From positions 1,736,001 to 1,800,000 of the forward strand of contig NZ_CP073066.1 of NCBI RefSeq assembly GCF_018314255.1: 64,000 nt of DNA. Reading direction: 5' to 3'. Source of the DNA: Lentilactobacillus buchneri. Its GTDB lineage: Bacteria > Bacillota > Bacilli > Lactobacillales > Lactobacillaceae. The position numbers and the translations under genes are program-made. Below, piece after piece: positions 12,465 to 64,000 of this stretch (positions within the stretch are counted from its first letter, which is position 1; every line of letters starts with the position of its first letter). The notes below the pieces were generated by a model, which saw only the letters and a list, made by a program, of their open reading frames with translations, made no database searches and was not told the DNA's origin.

Positions 12465-13697
12465 ATGACAAGTCCAATTCATGTAACATCGGAAATCGGT
12501 AAGTTGAAAACAGTTTTACTGAAACGTCCGGGTAGAGAAATTGAAAACTTTACACCTGACATGATGCCCCGGTTATTATTCGATGACATTCCATATTTAC
12601 CAATTGCCCAAAAGGAACATGACTACTTTGCCGATACTTTACGCGACAACGGTGTCGAAGTATTGTACCTCGAAAAATTAGCTGCTGAAGCTTTAGACGC
12701 AGCTGGTGACAAAGTTCGTAATGATTTCTTAGAGCAAATGCTGACTGAATCCGGATATGCAACAGGAACCATCCATGATGCATTGAAAGAATATCTCAGC
12801 AGCATGAACAACCAAGACATGGTCAACAAGATCATGGAGGGTATCCGTAAGAATGAAGTAGATTTCGTGCCAACAGACTTAGTAAGTGCTGCTGAAACCG
12901 AGAACTACGAATTCTACATGGATCCAATGCCTAACTTATACTTCACCCGTGACCCTTCGGCATGTATCGGTAAAGGTTTGAGTATCAACCACATGACATT
13001 CCCTGCAAGACAACGTGAGTCACTCTTTAACGAGATTGTCATCAAGTATCATCCACGTTTTGCTGACAAAGGGGTTCATGTATGGCGTGACCGTAACCAC
13101 GATACCCGTATCGAAGGTGGAGACGAATTAGTCTTGAACGATCACGTAATGGCAATCGGTGTTTCTCAACGAACTTCCGCTGACGCCATTCAAGATATTG
13201 CTAAGAGCTTATTTAAAGAAGGTCACTTTGACACAGTTATTGCGATTAAGATTCCGCATAACCATGCAATGATGCATTTGGATACTGTGTTTACAATGAT
13301 TAACTACGATCAATTTACGGTTCATCCAGGAATCCTTGGTGAGGGCGGCCATATCGACACTTGGACAATTACTCCAGGTAAGAACGGCGACTTGAACTTG
13401 GACCACAGAACTGACCTCAAGCAAGTCTTGAAGGATGCGCTTAAGCTGGATGATTTGGACTTGATCCCAACCGGTAATGGCGACCCAATTATCGCCGGCC
13501 GTGAACAATGGAACGATGGTTCAAACACTTTGGCAATTGCTCCAGGCGTTGTGGTAACTTATAACCGGAACTACGTTTCAAATGACTTACTCAGAAAGCA
13601 TGGCTTAAAAGTGCTGGAGGTTATCTCAAGTGAGTTGTCAAGAGGACGTGGGGGTCCACGTTGCATGAGCTGCCCAATTGTTAGAGAGGACATCTGA
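12465..13697 (+). CDS. arcA: Arginine deiminase
   Basis: This 410-residue cytoplasmic enzyme converts arginine to citrulline and ammonia, the first ADI step. Visible motifs are [12 protein letters not shown] (substrate loop), HLDTVFTMI (catalytic His region) and [12 protein letters not shown] near the end, with Cys400 as expected nucleophile. A GAGGAGG ribosome site precedes the ATG. The gene is well expressed by the look of its codons. Its stop codon is directly followed by the first of two structured repeats that separate it from arcB by 399 bp. Control probably combines ArcR, CcpA and ArgR at the long upstream region. Confidence 0.98.
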
Positions 13698-13856
13698 GAG
13701 CGCGACTAGGCCCGGGTTGACCCCGGAGTGTAAGCCGGGAATTTTAATGATGAACGCCTTTAGTTCATCATTGGAATTTTTGGCTTACACAGTTAGGGGT
13801 CAGGGCCGTCGCCAAGTAGGCTAGGCAGGCTTTCAGCCGGCCGTCGGAGCGTGTTT
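13698..13856 (+). repeat. Structured intergenic element, copy A (behind arcA)
   Basis: It starts at the base after the arcA stop. GCGAC pairs with GTCGC (13808-13812), GGCCC (13709-13713) with GGGCC (13803-13807), and TGACCCC (13718-13724) with GGGGTCA (13796-13802). TA and GGGT bulge on the 5' strand only. A long hairpin sits on top: GTGTAAGCC (13728-13736) with GGCTTACAC (13782-13790), then an inner stem ending GATGAAC/GTTCATC. It ends GTCGGAGCGTGTTTAC. There is no U-run. Same architecture as copies at 13862, 20158, 25236, 61551, 63421 and 63541. Confidence 0.85.
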
Positions 13857-13861
13857 ACATC

Positions 13862-13980
13862 AGAGCGCGACGAGCAACGGGTGAGGCGGTTTCTAAGGGT
13901 ACTTTGCTTGAAGTCCCTGGGTTTGGGACTTTAAGCAAAGTGCACTTAGAAGTTAGCCTCAGTTGCGTCGAAGCGTGATT
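13862..13980 (+). repeat. Structured intergenic element, copy C (tandem, before arcB)
   Basis: AGAGCGCGAC is followed by the outer stem: CGAC/GTCG, a 2-base bulge, GCAAC/GTTGC, a GGG bulge, and TGAGGC/GCCTCA (13956-13961). The top hairpin contains CTAAGGGTACTTTGCTTGAAGTCCC and its partner, written in parts: CTAAG/CTTAG, CTTTGCTT/AAGCAAAG, AAGTCCC/GGGACTT. It closes with GTCGAAGCGTGATTAC. The sequence of every stem differs from copy A while the layout is kept. Beyond it, 13981-14090 shows only the arcB ribosome site AAGGAG. Confidence 0.83.
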
Positions 13981-14096
13981 ACGAGGCTTCCTCATCCAGG
14001 CAGCTGACAAAAAACCACCAACTCAACTCTACTCTACAAACAATTAAAGCAAGTGTACCGTACCCAAAAACAATCATCATCAAGGAGAATTCGATT

Positions 14097-15128
14097 ATGA
14101 CAAAAGATTTCAAGCAAAACGTATTTCAAGGACGCAGCGTATTAGCCGAAAAAGACTTCACAGCAGCCGAACTCGAATATTTGATCGATTTTGGTCTCCA
14201 TTTGAAGGCACTTAAAAAGGCTGGCGTTCCGCACCACTATTTGGAAGGTAAAAACATTGCCTTACTCTTCGAAAAGTCATCAACTCGTACTCGTTCAGCA
14301 TTTACCACTGCTGCGATTGACCTTGGTGCCCACCCAGAATACTTGGGATCAGGCGACATTCAATTAGGTAAGAAGGAATCAACTTCAGACACTGCCAAAG
14401 TTCTTGGCAGCATGTTCGATGGCATTGAATTCCGTGGTTTCAAACAAAGCGATGCTGAAATTCTTGCCAGAGACAGTGGCGTTCCAGTATGGAATGGTTT
14501 GACCGATGAATGGCACCCAACTCAAATGTTGGCTGACTTCATGACTGTGAAGGAAAACTTTGGCAAACTTCAAGGTTTAACTTTGACATTTATGGGTGAC
14601 GGCCGTAACAACGTTGCCAACTCATTGTTGGTAACCGGTGCCATCTTGGGGGTTAACATCCACATCGTTTCACCTAAAGAGTTATTCCCAACTGACGAAA
14701 TTCAAAGCATCGCTAAGGGCTTTGCTGAAAAATCTGGTGCCAAACTGTTGATTATCGACGACCTTGATGAAGGTATGAAGGGCTCAAACATTGTTTATAC
14801 CGACGTTTGGGTATCAATGGGCGAAAGCAACTGGGAAGAACGCGTTAAGTTGTTAACACCATATCAAGTTAACATGGAAGCCCTGAAGAAGACCGGCACA
14901 CCTGACGATCAATTAATCTTCATGCACTGCCTGCCAGCATTCCACAATACTGAAACCGAATACGGCAAGGATATTGAAAAGAAATATGGCATTACTGAAA
15001 TGGAAGTTACTGATGAAGTGTTCACCAGCAAGTATGCTCGTCAATTTGAAGAAGCAGAAAACAGAATGCACTCAATCAAGGCTATGATGGCCGCAACACT
15101 TGGGAATTTGTTTATTCCACGTGTATAG
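14097..15128 (+). CDS. arcB: Ornithine carbamoyltransferase (catabolic)
   Basis: This 343-residue cytoplasmic enzyme carries out phosphorolysis of citrulline to ornithine and carbamoyl phosphate. SSTRTRSAF (about residues 58-66) binds carbamoyl phosphate and HCLPAFHN (about 281-288) binds the amino acid. The location between arcA and arcC points to the catabolic form. AAGGAG precedes the ATG. A strong terminator directly follows, so arcC may be transcribed by read-through at a lower level. Confidence 0.97.
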
Positions 15129-19492: not shown

Positions 19493-20149
19493 ATGACACA
19501 ATTATTTTTTGACTTTGACGGGACGATCGCCGACTCGGAAGCCGGCATTCTCAAATCGCTGAAGTACGCAGTCGACAAAATGAAATTGCCGGAACTGACA
19601 CATGATCAATACTTGAAATTTATTGGCCCGGCACTCAAGACCAGCCTCCAAAAATTTTATCCCCAGCTATCTGAAGCGGATCAGATGCAGGCGTTAAAAT
19701 ACTATGCCGATTATTACCGTAGCGAGGGGATGTTCCAACTCGATCTGTATCCCGGCATTGTCCAGGAGTTGCAGGCCTTGAACGAACAGGGCTACGACGT
19801 CAATATCGCCTCTGCCAAGCCGGAAGATTTGATTCATGAATTGACGGATCAACTAGATTTGACGCAATACTTTACCGGTCGATTTGGTGCGGGGACTGAC
19901 GAGAAAACCCGGATGACCAAGACAGCGGTTCTCAAATATGCCTTGGAACAAACTCATGCCAACGCCAACGACAGCATCATGATCGGCGACCGTGACACCG
20001 ATATGCTTGGCGGCTATCACAATCAGGTTAAGACGCTGGGAGTTACTTATGGATTTGGCGACGTTGCCGAACTGTTGGGCGCCCATGCGAATACGTTGGT
20101 GGATAAGCCCGAGCAGATTCAGGGCGGGGTAGAGAAATTAATCAGCTAA
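19493..20149 (+). CDS. HAD-superfamily phosphatase (phosphoglycolate-phosphatase-like)
   Basis: This 218-residue protein has HAD motif I as FDFDGTIADSE (residues 5-15), motif II near INIASAKPE, and motif IV as MIGDRDTDMLGG (about 163-174), with a helical cap between motifs I and II. It should be a cytoplasmic small-molecule phosphatase of the Gph/PpaX type; substrate unknown. It is followed, nine bases after the stop, by a structured intergenic element and then by an ISL3 copy. Confidence 0.87.
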   Translation: MTQLFFDFDGTIADSEAGILKSLKYAVDKMKLPELTHDQYLKFIGPALKTSLQKFYPQLSEADQMQALKYYADYYRSEGMFQLDLYPGIVQELQALNEQGYDVNIASAKPEDLIHELTDQLDLTQYFTGRFGAGTDEKTRMTKTAVLKYALEQTHANANDSIMIGDRDTDMLGGYHNQVKTLGVTYGFGDVAELLGAHANTLVDKPEQIQGGVEKLIS

Positions 20150-20157
20150 AGACGCCA

Positions 20158-20280
20158 AGAGCGTGGGCCAATAAGCGGTTAGCTTTCAGAGTATAAGGGG
20201 ATTACCCGAATATCCAGAACTTGGATATTTGGGTAATTCCCTTATACGGCCGGAAGCTGCTTATTGGCCCACAGTTCTGC
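20158..20280 (+). repeat. Structured intergenic element, copy D (behind the HAD gene)
   Basis: AGAGCG leads into GTGGGCCAATAAGC (20163-20176), which pairs perfectly with GCTTATTGGCCCAC (20259-20272). GGTT (20177-20180) bulges on the 5' strand, then AGCTT pairs with AAGCT (20254-20258). The top hairpin joins GTATAAGGGGATTACC with GGTAATTCCCTTATAC and closes around 20217-20221. Layout and orientation match copy A. Confidence 0.85.
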
Positions 20281-20322
20281 TAGATAATATTTAGGCGCAA
20301 AACGAGGCTGGAACAAAATTTT

Positions 20323-25170: not shown

Positions 25171-25235
25171 ACTGGACTCCTTTTGAGATAAGCGTTTGAG
25201 TTTCTTTTTTGGTTAGCACTGAATGTGACGGTACG

Positions 25236-25353
25236 TAAATACGCTCACCAAGCCAACTTCGACCGCATTATCCAATAACGAGGCTCGATGCGCGAAAACG
25301 CATCAAACCTCGTTATTGAATAAATGCTCAGAAGTTAAACAGCTTGCTTGAGA
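25236..25353 (-). repeat. Structured intergenic element, copy E (behind the XRE gene)
   Basis: On the minus strand, just after the XRE stop: CAAGCT pairs with GGCTTG, GTTT bulges on the 5' strand, AACTTC pairs with GAAGTT, and a long top hairpin contains AATAACGAGG/CCTCGTTATT and GATGCG/CGCATC. The end TGAGCGTATTTAC matches the GGAGCGTGTTTAC end of copy A. Orientation again follows the upstream gene. GAGCG is missing on the 5' side. Confidence 0.75.
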
Positions 25354-25355
25354 CA

Positions 25356-25763
25356 TTAAAGATCTAATTCTCCTTGTTCCGTCCGCGGTCCTTGATCGTG
25401 CGGGGCATTGCTTCTTCCGTGGACGTAACCTGAGATTAACTGATAGATTTCATATCGGTCCTTGGAACTCAAATCTTGACCATTAAATTGCAAGGTTTTA
25501 TCTGAAATAAATAGTCGCGCCAAGTCATAGGTATTATTTTCAGATAACCCTGTCAAATAATCCATGGTGACGTCGAAGAACTTGGCGAGGCGCTGGATTT
25601 CGATGTAGTTGGGCGTTCTGATGCCACGTTCCCAGTTACCGATTTGAGAGCCGGTACTTTCATGCTCCTTATCAGTCGGGGAATCTTTGTTGATCGCGCG
25701 GGCTAGTTCTTCCAAAGTTAATTGTTGGCCTTTTCTTAATGCTCGTAATCTTTCTGGAAACAT
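25356..25763 (-). CDS. XRE-family helix-turn-helix regulator
   Basis: This 135-residue protein has an N-terminal HTH (LRALRKGQQLTLEELARAIN, then the recognition region TGSQIGNWERGIRTPNYIEIQRLAKFF in residues about 36-62). The remaining 70 residues match no known sensor domain. DYLTGLSEN after the HTH is common in phage-repressor-like XRE proteins. Target is unknown. It is divergent from the alpha/beta-hydrolase gene, with 123 bp between them. Confidence 0.88.
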   Translation of the reverse strand: MFPERLRALRKGQQLTLEELARAINKDSPTDKEHESTGSQIGNWERGIRTPNYIEIQRLAKFFDVTMDYLTGLSENNTYDLARLFISDKTLQFNGQDLSSKDRYEIYQLISGYVHGRSNAPHDQGPRTEQGELDL

Positions 25764-60935: not shown

Positions 60936-61550
60936 TTGAAAAAAGTATTATCTATGATCTTCGCTACTTCAGCCGCAGCTATTGGTTTATTCTTCGCAGG
61001 ATCCGCATATGCTTCAGCAAGCACAGTAGTTACAGTTAAGTCAGGCGACACCGTTTGGGGAATCTCACAACAATATAATTCCTCAGTAAAGGCTATCGAG
61101 AGCGCAAACAACCTTCAGGATGCAAACGTCATTCAAGTTGGTCAGCAATTAACAATTCCTTCAGCTGACACCGCATCAAATACTCAAGGTAGTGCACATG
61201 CAGCAACCGCAACGACTCAACAGACTCAGAGTTACAGCCAACCAGCTCAAACTCAAACCAACCAAGCACAGACTAGCCAAGCATCAACTTCAACTAGCAC
61301 TGCTACCAGCGGTTCAGTTGCTGAACAAGCAGCTCAATTGATGGAACAAAAGACTGGTGTTTCAGCATCAACTTGGATGGCCATCAGTTACCGTGAATCA
61401 AGAAACAACCCAACAGCACAAAACCCAAGCTCAACTGCTCACGGTTTGTACCAATCACTTTACACAACAAGTAATGACTGGCGCGAACAAGTAAACGACG
61501 CAGCACGGATTTACCATTCACAAGGAATGGGTGCTTGGGCATTAAATTAA
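60936..61550 (+). CDS. Secreted LysM-domain transglycosylase-like protein
   Basis: This 204-residue protein has a signal peptide (cleavage near AYASA, about residue 28), one LysM domain (VVTVKSGDTVWGISQQYN to QVGQQLTIPS, about 31-74), a Gln/Thr/Ser-rich linker (about 75-125) and a C-terminal SLT-like domain with WMAISYRESRNNPTAQN, where the Glu of YRES is the expected catalytic residue. It is related to lactobacillus APF/Sep proteins and should bind and cut peptidoglycan. TAGGAGTG precedes the start. The stop is immediately followed by a structured intergenic element. Confidence 0.9.
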   Translation: MKKVLSMIFATSAAAIGLFFAGSAYASASTVVTVKSGDTVWGISQQYNSSVKAIESANNLQDANVIQVGQQLTIPSADTASNTQGSAHAATATTQQTQSYSQPAQTQTNQAQTSQASTSTSTATSGSVAEQAAQLMEQKTGVSASTWMAISYRESRNNPTAQNPSSTAHGLYQSLYTTSNDWREQVNDAARIYHSQGMGAWALN

Positions 61551-61653
61551 GAGCGTGAAGAGCCCCGGGTTGATCCCGGAGCACAAGGGAAGGCGGCCAA
61601 TGATGAACTTGTTCATCGTTGGTCGTCTTTTCTTGTGCAGTAGGGATCAGGGG
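61551..61653 (+). repeat. Structured intergenic element, copy B (behind the LysM gene)
   Basis: It begins GAGCGTGAAG directly after the stop. CCCC (61563-61566) pairs with GGGG, GGGT bulges on the 5' strand, and TGATCCC (61571-61577) pairs with GGGATCA (61643-61649). The top hairpin starts CACAAG/CTTGTG and ends GATGAAC/GTTCATC. Compared with copy A, one stem pair changes from C:G to T:A with both partners altered. Confidence 0.83.
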
Positions 61654-61757
61654 GTCGGAGCGCATTTTCCACTAGGTAGCAGTGGTGCTGTCGGAGCGCA
61701 TTTTCCACTAGGTAGCAGTGGTGCTGTCGGAGCGTATTTTAACCAGGTGGCAGCGGT
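61654..61757 (+). repeat. Three tandem 36-bp units following copy B
   Basis: Two identical 36-bp units (61654-61689 and 61690-61725) and a diverged third begin GTCGGAGCG, followed by ATTTT and a small hairpin CCACT/AGTGG. Each repeats the GGAGCG end of the structured element. Confidence 0.85.
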
Positions 61758-61790
61758 ACAAGGTCAAAGATGCCAATTACCAAATAAAAA

Positions 61791-62317: not shown

Positions 62318-63289
62318 TTAGTCACCATTCATGATTGAATTTTTAACGATCACGTAATCAACTTTGGTAATATCATTCAACTTGCGGCCACCGGCATATG
62401 AAATCGACGACTGCAGATCTTGTTGCATTTCGTTCAAAGTATCTGAGATGTGACCACGGTAAGGAACCAACATTTGTCGGCCTTCAACGTTGCGGTAGGC
62501 ACCCTTTTGACGCTCGGATGCTGACCCCCAGTATTGCTTGTATTTCTTGCCATCAATACTGATCAGGTTACCAGGAGTTTCTTCATGACCGGCAAATAAT
62601 GAACCGATCATCACCATTGAAGCACCAAACCGCACAGACTTGGCGATATCGCCATTGTAACGAATACCACCGTCGGCGATCATTGGCTTCCGAGCTGCTT
62701 TGGAGCACAAACGCAGTGCAGCTAACTGCCAGCCGCCGGTACCAAACCCGGTCTTGAGCTTGGTGATACATGCTTTACCAGGTCCCACACCAATTTTGGT
62801 AGCGTCAGCGCCGGCATTTTCAATTTCGCGGACAGCTTCAGGTGTTCCCAAGTTTCCGGCAATCAAGAAACTGTCTGGTAATTGTTCCTTGATGTAATGA
62901 ATCATCTGGATAACATAGTCTGAATGACCATGAGCAACGTCAATCGTGATATATTCAGGCTTCTCGTTGTCGGCAACCAACTTGTCGATGAATTCATATT
63001 CTTCTGGCTTGATTCCAACACTGATAGAAGCATAAAGATCCTTTGAATGCATCATTTTGATGAAACCTTCACGCTTTTCAGGTTGAAATCTATGCATGAT
63101 GTAGAAGTAACCGTTTTGTGCCAGCCAAACGGCCAGGTCATCATCGATAACGGTTTCCATATTGGCAGGAACAACGGGGATCTTAAATGTCTTAGGTCCG
63201 AATTTTACTGAAGTGTCAGCTTCACTCCGACTCTTAATAATGTTCTTGTTAGGGATGAGTTGAATATCTTCGTAATCAAATACTTCCAT
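62318..63289 (-). CDS. guaC: GMP reductase
   Basis: This 323-residue enzyme converts GMP to IMP with [25 protein letters not shown] (about residues 166-185) contains the active-site cysteine and has the GMP-reductase rather than IMP-dehydrogenase form; [30 protein letters not shown] is the phosphate-binding part (key [10 protein letters not shown]). There are no CBS domains, as expected. GGAGGT precedes the ATG. It lies behind purA on the same strand, 372 bp away, so both feed the IMP/AMP/GMP balance; four repeat units fill the gap. Confidence 0.96.
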
Positions 63290-63305: not shown

Positions 63306-63415
63306 TTTAGGACAGCTCCGTCAGGTAGACAGTTTATAAGCGCCTGACTCTTCTTGCGACTTTAGGACAGCTCCGTCAGGTAGACAGTTTATAAGCGCCT
63401 GACTCTTCTTGCGAC
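63306..63415 (-). repeat. Perfect 55-bp tandem repeat, shortened form of the structured element
   Basis: Units 63306-63360 and 63361-63415 are identical. On the minus strand each contains GTCAGG pairing with CCTGAC, a short middle, then GGAGCTGTCCTAAA, the same end as the two full copies beside it. Confidence 0.88.
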
Positions 63416-63420
63416 TTTAG

Positions 63421-63534
63421 GACAGCTCCGCAAAGCAGAAGTCTGCGCCTAAGCACCTCTAACAAAATTCCAAGACCCGGAATTCTGTTAGAGGAGACTT
63501 AGGCACTGACTTCTAAGCGCTTTGCTCCGCTCAC
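63421..63534 (-). repeat. Structured intergenic element, copy F1
   Basis: Minus strand: GTGAGCGGAG, then CAAAGC pairing with GCTTTG, a GCTT bulge on the 5' strand, AGAAGTC with GACTTCT, and a top hairpin with CCTAAG/CTTAGG and CCTCTAAC/GTTAGAGG. It ends GGAGCTGTCC. It is a diverged tandem copy of F2. Confidence 0.88.
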
Positions 63535-63540
63535 TGTTTT

Positions 63541-63653
63541 AGGACAGCTCCTCCAAGCAGAAGTCTGCACCTAAGCACCTCTAACAAAATTCCAAGGCCC
63601 GGAATTCCGTTAGAGGAACTTAGGCTCCGACTTCTAACCGCTTGGATCCGCTC
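63541..63653 (-). repeat. Structured intergenic element, copy F2 (behind purA)
   Basis: Minus strand, a few bases after the purA stop: GTGAGCGGAT, CCAAGC pairing with GCTTGG, GGTT bulge, AGAAGTC with GACTTCT, and the same top hairpin as F1. The outer stem differs from F1 by one compensated pair (C:G here, A:T in F1). Confidence 0.9.
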
Positions 63654-63661
63654 ACTGTTTT

Positions 63662-64000
63662 TTACCAAACTTTTTCCACGACGTTCGTCTGTTCTCTGTC
63701 AGGACCGACTGAGAAGGTTGCGTAAGGGACTCCGACTGCTTTTTGGACATGGTTTAAATAATTTTGAGCGTTGGTTGGTAGTTCATCAAATGTCTTGCAC
63801 TTGGTAATGTCTTCGTCCCATCCCGGCAATTCGTCGTAAACAGGCTTGCAGGCATCGAGTTCTTTTAAGGTTGCGGGATAATGGTCAATCTTCTTGCCGT
63901 TTAATTCATAAGCAACGCAGATTTTCAAAGTTTTAATACCGGTTAGGATATCCAAACAGTTCAGTGCCAAATGGGTGTAGCCGCTGACACGCGCCGAGTG
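63662..64000 (-). CDS. purA: Adenylosuccinate synthetase, C-terminal part (5' end outside window)
   Basis: The frame is open through the right edge. The visible 112 residues begin [18 protein letters not shown] and include [30 protein letters not shown] and [10 protein letters not shown] near the end, all characteristic of the PurA C-terminal domain. The enzyme joins IMP and aspartate to adenylosuccinate for AMP synthesis. The stop is followed by structured element F2. Confidence 0.96.

Follow-up and report, generated by a model that had tools for sequence, protein, structure and literature searches.

A large interspersed family of hairpin elements in Lactobacillales, mostly placed at stop codons and exemplified between arcA and arcB of Lentilactobacillus buchneri

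In Escherichia coli, REPs are short repeats of 20 to 40 bp (PMC3733652), and predicted REPs located within 15 nt of a stop codon amount to 446/4,072 (PMC12306157). According to the latter source, which cites earlier work, the effect of REPs on translation is limited to distances of less than 16 nt from the stop codon. In pneumococcus, BOX elements have a modular organization with tandem boxB units, and the repeats of this species are presented as having proliferated and as likely to affect co-transcribed genes (PMC3049150). We analyzed a 64,000-nt stretch of the L. buchneri genome (contig NZ_CP073066.1, positions 1,736,001 to 1,800,000), hereafter the window, in which a sequence-only reading had pointed to a family of structured elements behind stop codons. 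Window numbering is used below unless another locus, labeled L with a number, or the genome is named. A single hairpin family, which is real, large, and interspersed in Lactobacillales, includes the copies found between arcA and arcB and those near 20, 61.5, and 63.5 kb.

The arcA gene, encoding arginine deiminase (12465..13697, plus strand; Pfam PF02274), is followed by arcB, encoding ornithine carbamoyltransferase (14097..15128, plus strand; Pfam PF00185/PF02729), as the downstream cistron. The two tandem elements proposed for the gap between them were recovered. Copy A, of the AG subtype, occupies 13696..13853 on the plus strand when an inserted module is included and is touched by the TGA stop of arcA, and copy C, of the C subtype, follows it in tandem at 13861..13979 on the same strand, its 3′ end lying 118 nt before the start of arcB. 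The segment from 13680 to 13990 folds with a predicted energy of −159.5 kcal/mol (z = −11.65), and none of 100 shuffled sequences was equally stable. Both copies were also matched by covariance model R1 (described below), copy A at 13696-13813 without being a training row (E = 7.6e-18) and copy C as a training row (E = 1.6e-30). Copy A folds into an outer stem, a GGGT bulge present solely on the 5′ strand, a GGA/AGTTA internal loop, and a long top hairpin; its outer stem closes at about 13852, beyond the inserted 35-nt module (GCCAAGTAGGCTAGGCAGG..GGCCGTC, 13811..13845, plus strand), which was delimited by eye and is found in other family copies too. In its varied form, the repeat module CCAAGTAGGCTAGGCAGG..CCGGCCGTC lies in or behind several copies, with an insertion point that differs within the structure, i.e., at window positions 13811-13845, at loci L020 and L021, at L013 near position 12529, and in the purH gaps of L146 and L149. 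An A/C-rich and apparently unstructured linker extends 3′ of the last copy of some arrays, for instance at 13990-14090, and such linkers (A+C of at least 0.65) accompany 11 of 43 arrays compared to 3 of 150 controls.

According to folds and alignments, the elements share a common plan that reads, from 5′ to 3′, outer stem, small G/A internal loop, lower stem, 5′-only bulge, middle stem, internal loop, and long top hairpin. The outer stem mostly pairs GYGY with RYRC, the small internal loop opposes GA or GGA on the 5′ side to GGA on the 3′ side, and the one-sided bulge reads GGG, GGGT, or GGTT. The upper internal loop varies with subtype (GGA/AGTA, GG/GTTA, AGA/GGCC, or GGA/GCA). The 3′ strand has almost no interruptions, and its end mostly reads GGAGCRYRTTT. 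Full model matches are mostly about 112 to 125 nt long.

This plan is supported by covariation in three subtype alignments, a test that the sequence-only reading had proposed. Changes on both sides of a pair were found in 32 of 46 pairs among C copies, 34 of 47 among AG copies, and 17 of 24 among copies of the other subtypes, and the fraction of paired cells reached 96.0%, 96.2%, and 96.3%, respectively, compared to 80.5%, 79.8%, and 74.6% in shuffles. The slid controls gave 31.9 to 45.7% for C, 36.4 to 44.0% for AG, and 32.7 to 44.1% for the other subtypes. In all three alignments, the covariation score and the paired cells exceeded 500 of 500 shuffles and every slid control, and for the other subtypes two of the five measures were equaled by 1 of 500 shuffles. 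Covariation also extends to the outer stem, with UA, CG, AU, and GC all present at one pair of the C alignment. In an alignment of 38 matches from families of the order other than Lactobacillaceae, 23 of 24 pairs showed both-sided changes; this alignment was fitted by the model and is thus biased toward structure.

The sense strand was predicted to be more stable than its complement in all 105 R1 copies considered, namely, 60 from L. buchneri (those of at least 60 bits among the 87 placed copies described below), 24 from the genus, and 21 from other genera (the better scoring of 43 and 28, respectively). This difference arises because G·U pairs, which are frequent on the sense strand, become A·C mismatches on the other one; the number of G·U pairs per copy was 3.1 to 4.6 in sense and 0.2 to 0.3 in antisense (3.87 and 0.33 for the L. 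buchneri copies). The bias was weaker for matches of the second model, R2 (25 of 31 L. buchneri copies and 32 of 34 copies in other families). Although the orientation of each copy was set by models that score G·U pairs, it agrees with gene direction, which is invisible to the models. The sense-strand bias appears to be pointing to selection on the transcribed RNA; no such bias would be expected from a DNA cruciform, and selection on one DNA strand, as for a single-stranded DNA substrate, could also produce it.

The same layout was said to recur elsewhere in the window, and it does so by fold for all seven copies and by model for all but copy E. Copy D, of the D subtype (20155..20284, plus strand), begins some 10 nt after the stop codon of a gene for a HAD hydrolase (Pfam; 19493-20149) and is matched by both R1 (E = 1.4e-9) and R2 (E = 1.7e-20), being a training row of neither. 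Copy G, of the AG subtype (61549..61666, plus strand; R1 training row, E = 9.4e-18), lies at the TAA stop codon of a gene encoding a LysM domain (Pfam; 60936-61550), and 3′ of it the tail GGAGCGCATTTTCCACTAGGTAGCAGTGGTGCTGTC is arranged in tandem repeats (61657..61760, plus strand). Copies F1 (63542..63657) and F2 (63420..63536), both of the F subtype and on the minus strand, lie in tandem behind purA, the adenylosuccinate synthetase gene (Pfam; stop at 63662), with F2 as the follower; both are R2 training rows (E about 5e-27) and, as nontraining rows, were also matched by R1 (E = 1.8e-6 and 2.3e-6, respectively). Two shortened repeats of the F unit that have lost the top hairpin were recognized by eye at 63310..63420 (minus strand), between F2 and the downstream gene with an IMPDH/GMP reductase domain (Pfam; 62318-63289). 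Copy E, of the E subtype (25229..25345, minus strand, downstream of an HTH gene at 25356-25763 on the same strand), has a degenerate outer stem and is the weakest member. Neither R1 nor R2 matched it in the window search, and an unfiltered search of 501 bases gave a partial match of 16.2 bits. Copy E fits the family by fold only as far as its layout is concerned, and its probable membership relies on this fold together with nhmmer similarity to two other copies.

With the arcA-arcB stretch as blastn query, 62 matches, including the query itself, were obtained in the L. buchneri genome. Two covariance models were then used, R1, built from 40 copies of the C and AG subtypes, and R2, built from 27 copies of the remaining subtypes; copies per genome obtained from these whole-genome searches are lower bounds. 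Further copies, expected from a covariance-model search, were abundant in the L. buchneri genome (2.5 Mb), with at least 94 R1 and at least 121 R2 matches that merge into at least 145 distinct places. R1 matched 17 of 24 genomes of the genus (two of the 7 R1-negative genomes have one R2 match each) and 95 of 350 genomes in 19 of 40 genera of the family; in the class sample, it matched 1 of 151 genomes, namely, the source genome itself. R2 matched 103 of 201 genomes in 23 of 40 genera of the family and 61 of 246 sampled genomes in 26 of 64 genera of the order, with 48 of these 61 falling outside Lactobacillaceae. At the gathering score, no Rfam 15 family matched the 64-kb window, and in eight further copy-bearing loci 3 matches were obtained, none of them on an element. 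At a permissive threshold, five matches of up to E = 10 in the arcA region, to miRNA, lncRNA, and snoRNA families, were far below the cutoff and were dismissed as chance. No earlier description of the hairpin family was found in the open literature, as judged by titles or the beginnings of abstracts. At a locus from another family of the order (L228), group II intron matches (RF00029 and RF02004; 2764-2862 and 3348-3513, minus strand) end just upstream of the element. A tRNA end was also suspected from the sequence 5′ of this copy, and no tRNA or tmRNA was found there.

We then examined where the copies lie relative to genes, which were called by a simple longest-ORF script for all placement counts. 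Of the 94 R1 matches, nine that echoed a copy on the opposite strand and one that was partial and on the same strand were removed, leaving 84; five further R1 matches brought the set to 89, and two outside the loci analyzed were set aside, giving 87 placed copies, of which 66 come first in their array and 21 are tandem followers. Among the first copies, 43/66 start no more than 5 nt from a same-strand stop codon (stops located at most 23 nt into the element being included) and 45/66 no more than 25 nt from one, and the remaining 21/66 lie beyond 25 nt of any called one. The chance expectation for 5-nt anchoring is 4.95%, based on 59,842 possible intergenic placements in both orientations drawn from the same genome regions that surround the copies. 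For R2, placement was determined for 31 copies not counted under R1, one being a tandem follower and the remaining R2-only places being left out; 15 of the 30 first copies lie within 5 nt of a stop and 14 are not within 25 nt. Similar anchoring within 5 nt was observed in the same genus (20 of 27, three loci being the arcA site), in other genera (15 of 28), and in other families (12 of 21), with loci taken from the better-scoring matches. TAG serves as the stop in 28 of 45 anchored cases, compared to 83 of 345 genes without an element. In the most frequent arrangement (18 copies), the AG of a TAG stop sits within the element, and in a few cases the stop lies 9 to 23 nt inside, such that the element encodes the end of the protein, as for cydC and a transporter gene at L016. 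Placement relative to gene ends is thus far from random. The proposal that every locus starts behind a stop codon or in tandem describes the window copies; genome-wide, it becomes a strong majority. The orientation along the upstream gene was upheld. An opposite gene has its stop no more than 25 nt from the 3′ end of the element for only 1 of 87 R1 copies (the gene being a called ORF of 80 amino acids) and for none of the 31 R2-only copies.

Some copies depart from this arrangement. At least four begin no more than about 20 nt downstream of an intrinsic terminator hairpin, and a role of these in the upstream mRNA is unlikely. Six others are antisense to the gene that they precede, four in the L. 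buchneri genome, at 871367(−), 1464235(+), 1603556(+), and 1151133(−), and two on plasmids (L225:1508-1625 and L226:1511-1629). Each has its 5′ foot a few nucleotides from the putative ribosome-binding site of the opposite gene, and the L226 copy, at its 3′ end, is in addition adjacent to the stop of a further opposite gene. A role in the upstream message does not account for the post-terminator and antisense copies.

By analogy with stop-proximal E. coli REPs, we lean tentatively, with slightly less than even confidence, toward a cis-acting RNA element. Its transcript would form the start of the 3′ UTR or of the intercistronic RNA, and the foot of this very stable hairpin, being at the stop codon, would fall within the footprint of the terminating ribosome. 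Translation of the last codons or ribosome release would then be slowed, resulting in a lower yield and possibly in tmRNA rescue. The hairpin might also block 3′-to-5′ decay, such that the upstream cistron, here arcA, would be longer lived than the downstream one. The anchoring agrees with the distance limit reported for E. coli REPs; protection from 3′-to-5′ decay and processing by RNase III fit it less specifically.

The content of individual sites was compared by eye between species. ArcA is 98% identical to its counterpart in L. kefiri and 97% identical to that in L. parabuchneri, with arcA relatives within Lentilactobacillus ranging from 95 to 98% identity. The arcA-arcB gap contains AG+C in L. 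buchneri and L. kefiri, C+AG in L. parabuchneri, AG+F in L. kisonensis, C+F in L. rapi, F in L. dabitei, a remnant in L. raoultii, and no element but a short gap in L. diolivorans. Of 18 purH-purD gaps, 11 hold full elements of varied subtype, 3 hold remnants, and 4 hold none, the gaps without an element measuring 10 to 32 nt. At the end of cydC, which in L. buchneri is followed by a gene on the opposite strand, 7 of 18 genomes carry elements (AG, C, D, E, or F), 1 carries a possible remnant, and 10 carry none; in three genomes, the start of the element precedes the ancestral stop by about one codon, and the offset differs slightly by subtype. As seen by eye, the arcA, purH, and cydC spots are kept between species while the subtype changes, and decay occurs too. 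That the element is dispensable is shown by conserved genes at which it is reduced to a remnant or absent. No target-site duplication was recognized by eye between occupied and empty purH and cydC sites.

Two further features of the purH-purD gaps were recorded. In L150, L151, and L154, tandem series of 5′-truncated copies have intact 3′ ends and similar tails, and such series could be the product of replication slippage or primed copying. In most of the gaps of L143 to L152, a second conserved hairpin (AAGGCTG..CAGCCTT, with TACATA) lies between the elements and the start of purD.

Related DNA is also carried by plasmids. A C-like copy was found in 18 plasmid records, 17 of which cover at least 80% of the query, and a similarity listing gave 76 records with F-like DNA, including those of Listeria, Lactiplantibacillus, Pediococcus, Lacticaseibacillus, and Limosilactobacillus; R2 was run on two of the F-like records (L. 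reuteri and L. plantarum) and matched both. A plasmid search with an H-subtype copy and phage searches with copies A and C gave no match. On Pediococcus claussenii plasmid pPECL-8, a C copy is located where an ABC transporter gene (L139:773-2524) ends; the product of this gene shares, over 583 residues, 98.5% identity with that of the L. buchneri transporter gene at L016:2381-4132. The first unit behind the transporter is AG at L016 and C on pPECL-8, and in both the element encodes the last residues and the stop. Because horA is located on pPECL-8 according to PMC3765258, the transporter is taken to be horA. Judging from these sequences, a Lentilactobacillus origin of the brewery-plasmid transporter cassette is possible, and a copy joined to a nearly identical transporter on brewery plasmids suggests that the element may also mark gene flow.

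Site turnover and plasmid copies bear directly on a second reading, possible though on balance doubtful, in which the element is a nonautonomous mobile DNA repeat (MITE- or REP-like) without host function. Its hairpin would be a recombinase substrate formed from one DNA strand, and copies would survive where they are least harmful, behind genes or terminators or beside other functional sites. The differing content and order of units between close species at one spot (AG+C or C+AG at arcA), the various subtypes and slightly different offsets at the cydC end, some of them before the ancestral stop, the remnants and 5′-truncated tandem copies, the similar DNA on plasmids, and the copies behind terminators or antisense beside putative ribosome-binding sites are all consistent with it, and the pneumococcal BOX, RUP, and SPRITE repeats are read likewise in PMC3049150. 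However, mere tolerance predicts both orientations at stops, and a 3′ end near a stop was encountered only once among 87 R1 copies and never among the 31 R2-only ones; nor would tolerance be expected to produce the sharp placement between −2 and +5 nt. An association with RAYT/IS200 was ruled out, since a search of the L. buchneri genome for the Y1 transposase (PF01797) gave no match, with a control that was positive in 5 of 14 genomes, including E. coli. That no target duplication was recognized by eye at purH and cydC, and that the phage searches with copies A and C found none, also counts against this reading. A cis-acting RNA and a mobile repeat may both be true together, the pneumococcal repeats being presented both as proliferated and as likely to affect co-transcribed genes (PMC3049150). 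In the cis-acting reading, units would spread or swap between sites by copying or by ectopic recombination through their similar ends, with tandem gain and loss.

We consider it unlikely that the element mainly serves as a site for RNase III or other processing, which would cut operon mRNA behind the first cistron and separate the fates of the cistrons, or would free a stable small RNA derived from the 3′ UTR. Long and nearly uninterrupted stems would suit such a site, PMC3049150 mentions that transcribed CE repeats are cleaved by RNase III, and 40 of the 66 first R1 copies are followed by a gene of the same strand; the other 26 are followed by one of the opposite strand, however, and contact with the stop codon is left without explanation. 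Putative noncoding RNAs of P. claussenii (PECL_1959, PECL_2059, and PECL_2060) are reported to be strongly raised in beer, two of them without an Rfam match and one encoded on pPECL-8, the plasmid with horA and the C copy (PMC3765258). Such highly expressed RNAs would agree with processing, and they could be transcripts of these elements.

A transcription terminator or attenuator is very improbable. Although a stable hairpin is followed by RYRTTT(T) and no Rho was found in the genome, inspection by eye showed mostly RYRTTT(T/C) and no U-run directly 3′ of the outer stem, in agreement with the view that this is not a plain terminator, and the very long stem is unlike that of an intrinsic terminator. 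Moreover, the script criteria place a terminator in the next 350 nt downstream of 15 of the 45 stop-anchored copies, and other copies lie inside operons, such as arcA-arcB and purH-purD. Of the three roles proposed earlier, i.e., 3′-end formation, mRNA stability, and protein-level adjustment, the first is therefore the least likely, given the missing U-run and these downstream terminators. Rho-dependent termination, brought to mind by the A/C-rich stretches behind some copies, was ruled out, as no Rho gene was found in the L. buchneri genome (two TIGR00767 matches were far below the cutoff). Stop-codon readthrough or recoding is barely credible: the structure directly follows TAG in many cases, but non-TAG stops are common (17/45) and in all 43 cases considered the frame is closed by another stop, at a median distance of 10 codons (range, 1 to 49).

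Returning to the cis-acting RNA, one may extend the proposal and suppose that the exchangeable hairpin units form an order-wide class of stop-anchored regulatory RNA in Lactobacillales, retuning gene output by swap, gain, and loss and acting on the terminating ribosome and on the 3′ end of the upstream message; we hold this extension with considerable reserve. If true, it would represent a REP-like layer of control at the end of translation in food and gut bacteria. The structure is under clear selection, has no Rfam match, and recurs at no fewer than 145 places in one genome and in a quarter of the order sample (61/246), which makes the role of stop-proximal hairpins testable in nonpathogenic species that are easily grown.

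Among known systems, the comparison with integron attC sites went no further than analogy. Intrinsic terminators share with the element a hairpin 3′ of a gene but differ in that the element has a long bulged stem and no U-run and stands before a further terminator (15/45) or inside operons. The BOX, RUP, and SPRITE repeats of Streptococcus are similar by description, being structured intergenic repeats of a Gram-positive bacterium, with a tandem modularity of BOX that resembles the arrays seen here; they differ, by description only, in that the account given in PMC3049150 includes no anchoring at stops in a fixed orientation. E. coli REPs are likewise interspersed extragenic hairpin repeats, some of which lie directly behind stop codons. 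However, they measure 20 to 40 bp, as opposed to about 112 to 125 nt with defined one-sided bulges here, and the number near a stop is 446/4,072, as opposed to the majority of first R1 copies (43/66 within 5 nt). The 15-nt distance used for REPs encompasses this majority, although not all first R1 copies. In contrast to the REP/RAYT system, no Y1 transposase was found in the L. buchneri genome. The family is therefore of a REP/BOX-like kind, apparently undescribed, and set apart by its size, its layout, its anchoring, and a constraint at the RNA level.
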